Shown: positions 33,640 through 38,718 of the stretch, in pieces
Layout of the letters: every line of letters starts with the position of its first letter
How positions within the stretch are numbered: the stretch's first letter is position 1
DNA from: Salinirubrum litoreum
GTDB taxonomy: Archaea > Halobacteriota > Halobacteria > Halobacteriales > Haloferacaceae
DNA: 64,000 nucleotides
Direction of reading: 5' to 3'
Assembly (NCBI RefSeq): GCF_020567425.1
Contig: NZ_JAJCVJ010000002.1
Span: 971,068-1,035,067, forward strand
Notes under the pieces: model-generated
What the model saw: the letters and a program-made list of their open reading frames with translations, nothing else
What the model was told of the DNA's origin: nothing
The model's database searches: none
Translations under genes and position numbers: made by a program

Positions 33640-33995
33640 GAACTCGGTCGAATCGGTCGCAGACGACGAGAGGTGAAAGCCCCCGGCCGCTCGACCTCCC
33701 GCGACTCGCTGTGCTCCTCAGTCAGGCGAGCCGGCTTGCCGGCTCGCCTTCCTTCCGGTGCTGACGGGCGAGCCAAGCCTCGCCCGTCTGCTCGCGAGAC
33801 CTTCGGTCTCGCCCTGCTTGCGTCGTCGGGGGAGGATCGACCGGCCGGCCCCTTTCAGTCCCACCCGGAGATTTCGCGGGGACGCATGCGACTCCCGGTG
33901 GACCAGTCGCTTTCAGCGTGTGTGCCTACCTGCGACCGTCGGCGCGAGATGAACTCGCGCCAGCCCGGTCGACTGGTGCCTGTGTCGTGAGTCGG
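33640..33995 (+). repeat. Type 1 structured element, copy A
   Basis: About 356 bases matching the minus-strand copy at 38248-38597. Conserved blocks include GGTGAAAGCCCCCGGC (33672-33687), GGCCCCTTTCAGTCCCACCC, GACCAGTCG and the last 55 bases. TGAAAG/CCGGC in the first block can pair with GCCGG/CTTTCA in the second, closing a domain of variable hairpins: 33725-33748 (11-bp stem), 33763-33788 (10-bp stem) and 33794-33812 (stem with a CTTCGG tetraloop). ACCAGTCG (33902-33909) pairs with CGACTGGT (33969-33976), closing a domain that holds an 8-bp hairpin, GGCGCGAG-ATGAA-CTCGCGCC. This is suggestive of a structured RNA. Confidence 0.8.
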
Positions 33996-34029: not shown

Positions 34030-34300
34030 CGGTCGGCGCGCGCGTCTGGCGCGTGCGAGGGAGGTCGGCGCGGGCGGTGCCGAGAGCGCCGACCGAGGCT
34101 GGGGAGGACGAGGTGCGGTGCTGTCGCGGGTGCGGTCGTGGCAGAGGTGCGCTAGCAATCGTAGCGGTGCTGGTGCTGTGGCGGTCGCGGTTGCAGTTCG
34201 GTGCTGTCGCGGTTCCGCTGGTAGGTGCGCTAGATAGAGTAGCGGTCCCGGTGCTGTCGCGGTCTGCGGTGAGACCGCAGTTTACGATGCGGTAGTTGTC
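34030..34300 (+). repeat. Type 2 structured element, copy 2
   Basis: Same order as copy 1 near 8.8-9.0 kb: a GC hairpin around 34036-34058, a 9-bp stem (34063-34071 with 34086-34094) around GGGCGGTGCCGAGA, the core GGCTGGGGAGGACGAGGTGC starting near 34097, then degenerate GCGGTGCTG repeats to about 34300. The stem sequence differs from copy 1 at three pairs, each compensated. Confidence 0.75.
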
Positions 34301-38004: not shown

Positions 38005-38120
38005 CGTGTCTCGGGTGACAGACTTCGCGGAGCCGACTTCCCTTCTGTGACGTGCCGACCTGTGAGGTCTAACGACGTGACGACATCGACCAGTTGCTGG
38101 TGACGGCAGACCGACCAGCC

Positions 38121-38246
38121 ACTGCCGACAGCACACCGACCAGCCACTGCCGACAGCACACCGACCAGCCACTGCCGACAGCACACCGACCAGCCACTGC
38201 CGACAGCACACCGACCAGCCACTGCCGACAGCACACCGACCAAGCC
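38121..38246. repeat. Five tandem 25-bp units
   Basis: Units of 25 bp containing ACTGCCGACAGCACACCGAC start at 38121, 38146, 38171 and 38196 with no differences. A fifth copy at 38221 has one inserted A, and a decayed half-unit precedes the array. There are no spacers, so it is a minisatellite and not a CRISPR. It abuts the end of the type 1 element. Confidence 0.92.
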
Positions 38247-38247
38247 A

Positions 38248-38597
38248 CCGACTCACGACACACGCACCAGTCGACCGGGCTGGCGCGAGTTCATCTCGCG
38301 CCGACGGTTTCAGGGAGGCGCTCGCGCTGAAACCGACTGGTCAACCCGGTGTTGCACGATGGGTCGCAGACTCCACCGGGTGGGACTGAAAGGGGCCGGC
38401 GGTCTCGTGAACGAAGTGAACGAGACGTTGGAGAGCTTCGCTCTCCAGAGTCTCGATCCCGCCCCGACGCACCAAGCACCGCAGGGAGGGAGAGCCAGCT
38501 TGCTGGCTCGACCGACTGAGGCGCGCAGGAAGTCGCGGCGGGTCGAGACGCCGGGGGCTTTCACCTCTCGTTCTCGGCGACCGATTCGACAGAGTTC
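38248..38597 (-). repeat. Type 1 structured element, copy B
   Basis: This is the inverted counterpart of 33640-33995, about 350 bases. The outer blocks, the long-range TGAAAG/CTTTCA and ACCAGTCG/CGACTGGT pairings and the GGCGCGAG hairpin are all conserved. The internal hairpins have changed sequence but remain hairpins. GAGCCAGC-AA-GCTGGCTC replaces GAGCCGGC-TT-GCCGGCTC with a compensated A-T/G-C pair. TGGAGAGC-GAA-GCTCTCCA and a GTCTCGT/ACGAGAC stem replace the other two hairpins. Confidence 0.8.
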
Positions 38598-38634
38598 ACA
38601 TAGCAGGCCGATTCGACAGAGTTCACATAGCAGA
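38581..38634. repeat. Two tandem 27-bp units
   Basis: CCGATTCGACAGAGTTCACA plus seven bases occurs at 38581-38607 and 38608-38634 with one mismatch at the end. It overlaps the outer end of the type 1 element and extends beyond it. Confidence 0.85.
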
Positions 38635-38718
38635 CCGCCTCACCAGAATCCACGCCGACAACGATCACAGAGTCCGAACCACGAAGCGTAAACCACCAGC
38701 TACGAAACACCGAGTACG

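Follow-up and report, generated by a model that had tools for sequence, protein, structure and literature searches.

Modular fold-back repeats across haloarchaea: exchangeable near-perfect hairpins, probably working as DNA, with plasmid copies upstream of an RPA-like gene

The closest described systems are REPINs, PATEs and the Frpo/ssi hairpins. REPINs are bacterial REP doublets accompanied by a RAYT transposase and predicted to adopt a hairpin or clover fold in single-stranded DNA (accessible part of PMC3116915). As described in that part, they are extragenic and occur in dozens of copies as inverted doublets with a short spacer, with singlets alongside the doublets, and the element analysed here shares these properties. 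It differs in that each of its halves (105-350 bp) carries an exchangeable hairpin of its own, as against the short REP, and in that no RAYT/Y1 gene lies nearby, Y1 being missing from many carrier genomes. PATEs and SMR-A of Haloquadratum walsbyi are palindromic mobile repeats that are free of a transposase (PMC3119063, accessible part); the element resembles them in these traits as well as in being haloarchaeal and in the occurrence of elements inside the palindromes of others; that part of the source reports no target duplication for them. PATEs are, however, linked to the ends of IS605, a link not found for the element, the two being compared by description and not by sequence. Frpo/ssi hairpins lie immediately upstream of SSB genes in bacterial leading regions and are promoters on single-stranded DNA, according to the accessible part of PMC11541004. 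The shared features are a DNA hairpin, its place upstream of a gene for a single-strand-binding protein, the common strand and the transfer region; unlike them, the element is archaeal, is also dispersed in chromosomes and has no -10/-35-type or archaeal promoter motif shown. The parallel is positional only. Searches of the open-access literature returned no description of this abundant, order-wide element.

Both inverted, non-coding copies of about 350 bp that the original prediction had placed in the window (the whole analysed stretch of 64,000 nucleotides) were confirmed in place and strand (Table 1). Its proposed pairings were also recovered: copy 1 contains TGAAAG (33674) and CTTTCA (33852), both of which recur in inverted form in copy 2; the CCGG-type stem is accompanied by nested hairpins that vary from copy to copy, each of them perfect; and ACCAGTCG at 33902-33909 with CGACTGGT at 33970-33977 closes a second domain. 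The CUUCGG tetraloop, in turn, is present in copy 1 and is not a conserved feature, since the 17 instances of that hairpin in host copies comprise 8 TCC, 6 TTC closed by G-C, 2 GGA and a single C(UUCG)G (copy 1), which rules out a conserved UUCG tetraloop. The window copy folds more stably than 100 of 100 dinucleotide shuffles (z -5.4, RNA parameters). A coding relic was also considered and rejected, the frame translation of copy 2 being without a relative in viral contigs.

Table 1. Features of the two window copies (positions are those of the window).
Feature	Position	Strand	Evidence or remark
Copy 1, monomer form	33640..33995	+	Covariance-model match G000:C2:1004735-1004938, 93.9 bits; BLAST
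5' cap (GAGGTGAAAGCCC)	33670..33682	+	GAAAG at 33675-33679; GAAAGC invariant in 30 aligned copies
Covarying main stem, 5' arm	33683..33705	+	Covariation
Nested perfect hairpin 1, differing between copies	33725..33748	+	Sequence
Nested perfect hairpin 2, then TGCT	33763..33788	+	Sequence
Nested perfect hairpin 3, C-UUCG-G loop in copy 1 only	33794..33812	+	Sequence, loop comparison
Covarying main stem, 3' arm	33822..33848	+	Covariation
3' cap GGCCCCTTTCAGTCCCACCC, most conserved part	33847..33866	+	Aligned copies
Second domain, ACCAGTCG/CGACTGGT closing GGCGCGA/TCGCGCC hairpin (33941-33961)	33902..33977	+	Seen in host-genome copies
Copy 2, monomer form, inverted	38248..38597	-	Covariance-model match G000:C2:1009440-1009636, 62.2 bits; BLAST
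Copy 2 core	38378..38566	-	GAAAG at 38562-38558; 3' cap ends 38378; extra hairpin within 3' arm

Short repeats adjoin these copies. A 25-bp tandem repeat (5.8 copies, 97% match) at 38102-38248 directly adjoins the inverted copy, and a 27-bp tandem repeat (2.2 copies) lies immediately upstream of it at 38579-38637; short tandem units like the latter also precede other copies in the host genome. A second recurring piece (GAGGCTGGGGAGGACGAGG...) is found 3' of copy 1, at about 34040-34130, and its reverse complement comes directly after the 3' cap in other genera (e.g. L032, L047).

The core has a constant order, namely GAAAGCCCC, stem, variable top, stem and GGCCCCTTTCAGTCCCACCC. Between the conserved caps stands a near-perfect Watson-Crick hairpin with a stem that can vary freely in sequence, and the variable top may contain additional perfect hairpins, which are nested and differ between copies. 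Copies in the host genome continue from the core into the second domain (ACCAGTCG/CGACTGGT) or into another type of 3' domain. Such a different domain (CACTGGTCGTCACCCGGCG ... CCTCCCCGACTGCTGGCGAC) stands in place of the ACCAGTCG domain in the host loci L243-L246, L251, L254, L256 and L258-L261. Further, a nested module of the form TGTCGTTCGA-stem-TCGTGATGACGA-stem-TCGAACCACGC, with covarying stems of its own, recurs inside the core across genera (L042, L020, L021, L030).

The genome-wide covariance-model search suggested with the original prediction was run with a core model (R1) built from 30 copies. It gave at least 65 core matches in the host genome (G000, 4.06 Mb), where BLAST found 82 matching pieces of the element, so the predicted number of two copies holds for the window and not for the genome. 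The core was located by the model in 238 of 293 sampled Halobacteriales genomes, the copy numbers there being lower bounds as at most 11 candidates were scored per genome. A phylum-wide sample of 294 genomes had the core in 48, all 48 listed being Halobacteriales, with no match outside this order. Carriers include records of Haloarcula, Halobaculum, Haladaptatus, Halopiger, Halosimplex, Haloglomus and others. A search across 85,000 species for a 16-mer from the 3' cap located it in at least 80 stretches, 76 of them with haloarchaeal titles among the matches listed; the other four (L320, L322, L376 and L382) are non-haloarchaeal and lack a model match to the core, so that the 16-mer matches there are due to chance. 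A viral element was rejected as well, for none of four sixteen-mer matches in IMG/VR is a core by the model, and phage records held no match to the element. The copies are intergenic. At 93 loci with both neighbours resolved, the flanking genes are convergent in 27, divergent in 24 and tandem in 42 (orientations come from an acidic-ORF heuristic, and some host copies are counted twice, as L064-L093 overlap L001-L030); a chromosomal transcription terminator or gene leader was rejected on this near balance. At eight loci (one of which was fetched twice) this heuristic predicted an ORF running across the core.

The element occurs singly or as tail-to-tail inverted pairs. Outside the host genome, a core faces a partner core in 33 of 89 loci in other genera, and all 33 adjacent pairs are tail-to-tail. 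Among 32 distinct pairs the spacer measures 18-30 bp in 31 and 49 bp in one. The outer ends of a pair read AACA(G/C)CNN-GAAAGCCCC, and both ends of a pair agree although NN varies between copies: end-to-end identity is 0.91-0.97 at outer positions -1 to -5, of which -1 and -2 are highly variable between copies (32 pairs). Terminal inverted repeats of MITE type are therefore present in pairs, while monomers lack a second end. Since the outer ends are also complementary, a pair can fold into one long hairpin or into a cruciform with four arms, the latter being possible because the facing C-runs of one core are fully complementary to the G-runs of its partner. For one pair folded as DNA, the minimum-energy structure is one long hairpin (z -10.3).

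The explanation that we consider probable is that of modular, haloarchaea-wide fold-back DNA repeats. Their working form would be an extruded or single-stranded DNA hairpin. Stems would stay perfect because each hairpin is copied, swapped or flipped as one unit, and template-switch correction of imperfect palindromes probably helps to keep them so. The dispersed copies would be non-autonomous passengers, moved by some enzyme or by errors of replication or recombination, and the plasmid copy would be a cis-acting site that serves during the single-stranded phase of the plasmid, by analogy with the bacterial Frpo/ssi. Against this explanation stand the failure to find a mobilising enzyme, the excess of G-U over A-C in the second domain and the exceptions on the plasmid side (15 of 30 RPA loci, together with PHS2).

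Cores on haloarchaeal plasmids were found by BLAST in 10 and 70 records. Sixteen plasmids were inspected (H1-H3, H5, H7-H10, H14, H17, H26, H32, H33, H38, H44, H49), and 15 of them have the core on the same strand as an RPA-like gene and upstream of it; the exception, PHS2 of Halobacterium, has no RPA-like gene within 2.5 kb. The encoded protein (about 290-300 aa) is annotated as a DNA-binding protein, OB-fold protein or replication factor A. It matched OB-fold/SSB-like Pfam models only below the cut-offs, so the term "RPA-like" rests on annotation and similarity. The distance from cap to start is 425-595 bp, readable in 17 of 20 loci, the remaining three being without an exact cap. Starting from the protein instead (30 RPA loci from 117 genomes), a core was found in 15 loci, in all 15 upstream and on the strand of the protein, and the other 15 showed no core at E 0.001. 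A T4SS/primase operon adjoins the core, on the stretch before it, in all five plasmids examined further; an ATP-binding protein, a DNA primase and a primase-associated protein are annotated in four of the five, and VirB4 or conjugal transfer in three. Separately, the haloarchaeal plasmid loci L432-L435, whose plasmids MOB-suite classifies as non-mobilizable, show a conserved operon of xseAB, small genes, VirB4, ATPase, DNA primase and primase-associated protein, with the xse genes in two.

Judged by its position, the copy on plasmids may serve as a hairpin of single-stranded DNA while the plasmid is being transferred. If it is indeed a single-strand DNA site, it would offer a way into the question of how T4SS plasmids of haloarchaea become established in a new cell. 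The rival that survives best, rather unlikely as it is, would turn this role into the origin of the whole family. Under it, an archaeal site of Frpo/ssi or oriT type, in the form of a DNA hairpin bordering the transfer region, would recruit an RNA polymerase, primase or relaxase-like enzyme on the incoming strand, and the chromosomal copies would be its scattered derivatives. The position and strand relative to the RPA-like gene in 15 of 16 plasmids, at a transfer region with adjoining T4SS-ATPase-primase-primase-associated genes, agree with such a site, as do the pairing kept as DNA and the placement of bacterial Frpo immediately upstream of SSB genes (PMC11541004, accessible part), the archaeal protein having only a weak OB-fold match. 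It is countered by the dozens of chromosomal copies that are not near such genes, by the MOB-suite classification of these plasmids as non-mobilizable and by the fact that no promoter motif, nick site or relaxase was identified. A bolder form of the idea, unlikely in our estimate, would make the element the archaeal counterpart of the single-stranded-DNA promoter or initiation sites of conjugative plasmids, a hairpin placed ahead of the RPA-like gene and active as the plasmid arrives in single-stranded form. The exchangeable, self-complementary stem of the element would then have spread through haloarchaeal chromosomes, giving rise to modular fold-back elements of a new class, with whole hairpins swapped like cassettes.

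The covariation of the core is very strong, yet not RNA-like in kind. Its score is 0.537; 500 shuffles gave 0.130 +/- 0.006, and sliding gave no more than 0.088. The single compensated base pair reported earlier is real as compensation and far too low as a number, since two-sided change is seen at 18 of 26 pairs among 30 sequences and at 23 of 26 among 128. Across the 128 copies 705 stem changes are two-sided and 10 one-sided; nearly all changes are thus compensated, and the uncompensated stem changes that the original prediction had named as evidence against itself were rare. The 21 stem pairs of these copies comprise 2352 Watson-Crick, 12 G-U and 51 A-C among 2653 cells, and after removal of register-ambiguous columns 9 G-U and 18 A-C among 2145 cells, with one-sided to two-sided changes at 8:584. 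The same counting in SRP RNA, the sole RNA control (28 sequences from genomes of the same order, two of 30 loci having been dropped as close to contig ends), gave 144 one-sided and 307 two-sided changes, and G-U makes up 10.9% of its standard pairs as against 0.4-0.5% of the stem pairs of the element. G-U is no commoner than A-C in the main stem. Within the host genome, the best 40 copies have 818 Watson-Crick, 2 G-U and 13 A-C among 840 cells, and all 58 copies 16 G-U and 22 A-C among 1168. G-U is rewarded by the covariance model, so its absence is not a product of the search. The near absence of G-U and of one-sided changes, relative to the SRP control, therefore argues that the pairing is kept in DNA, equally for both strands.

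These counts weigh against a structured RNA family, in which the element would be transcribed and its folded RNA would be the functional form; we hold this to be quite improbable. Very strong covariation, conserved cap and loop sequences and the stability of the fold (z -5.4) would suit it, and the second domain leaves some room for RNA: 29 host copies have 36 G-U (17 of them in one weak pair) and 7 A-C among 597 cells there, an excess of G-U that is a poor fit to a pure DNA reading. The main stem, with A-C not rarer than G-U, speaks against it, as do the whole hairpins swapped, flipped or deleted, the UUCG loop in one of 17 instances and the missing preference in gene orientation. The element shares with Rfam structured RNAs a conserved fold with covariation and differs from them in having almost no G-U and no match: Rfam gave no match in the window at the gathering threshold, and only five chance-level matches, none on the copies. 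The predicted folded RNA family, as opposed to a coding relic, hence stands as something real, conserved, folded and non-coding, and is unsupported as RNA. More generally, strong covariation is no proof of RNA by itself; here DNA palindromes carry it, and their covariation can be told apart from that of RNA by the G-U test.

The modular DNA repeat preferred here looks REPIN-like in layout and PATE/SMR-like in kind, but shows the transposase association of neither. The neighbouring proteins are 112 ordinary host genes with no family in more than three, and no transposase was found among the 25 commonest families near them. Movement in trans by an IS200/IS605-type Y1 transposase, as for REPIN/MITE or PATE-type elements, is very improbable. 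The extragenic, hairpin-forming inverted doublets with short spacers recall REPINs (PMC3116915, accessible part) and haloarchaeal PATEs/SMRs are likewise palindromic, transposase-free mobile repeats (PMC3119063, accessible part), but Y1 transposases do not track the element: the core is at none of 30 Y1 loci within the fetched flanks, which also sets it apart from the near-terminal palindromes that PATEs have in common with IS605-type transposons, and 11 of 18 genomes with at least eight core matches have no Y1_Tnp match, so RAYT/IS605 was rejected as the driver.

The element is missing from most orthologous sites, which it gains or loses from one species to another. Among the 32 genomes of one genus, those of two sister species hold a pair between two genes (430-442 bp); of the 28 species in which both flanks could be located (30 loci given), 26 have no pair and measure 49-122 bp at this site. 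The arms A of the two sisters are identical up to the 3' cap but for 1 of about 106 positions, while arm B and the spacer hold a wholly different hairpin between the same caps. Another genus (13 genomes) has a core at five of 12 sites read and none at seven. Two relatives there, with right flanks 96% identical, carry the same hairpin stem on opposite strands at an orthologous site, the flipped hairpin belonging to a single core in one and to half of a pair in the other. Reading of the target site was attempted at these intergenic flanks, which are too diverged for the exact insertion target to be read from empty sites. Among host cores, the hairpin is gone or partly deleted in L243-L246, L248, L249 and L028 (deleted in L243, L244 and L249). 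Replaced, flipped and deleted hairpins at the sites compared thus indicate that hairpins change as whole blocks, changes that recombination and template switching between palindromes would drive. The L146 locus is less clean, its orthologues in five genomes having differing stems under the same caps, some of them mismatched.
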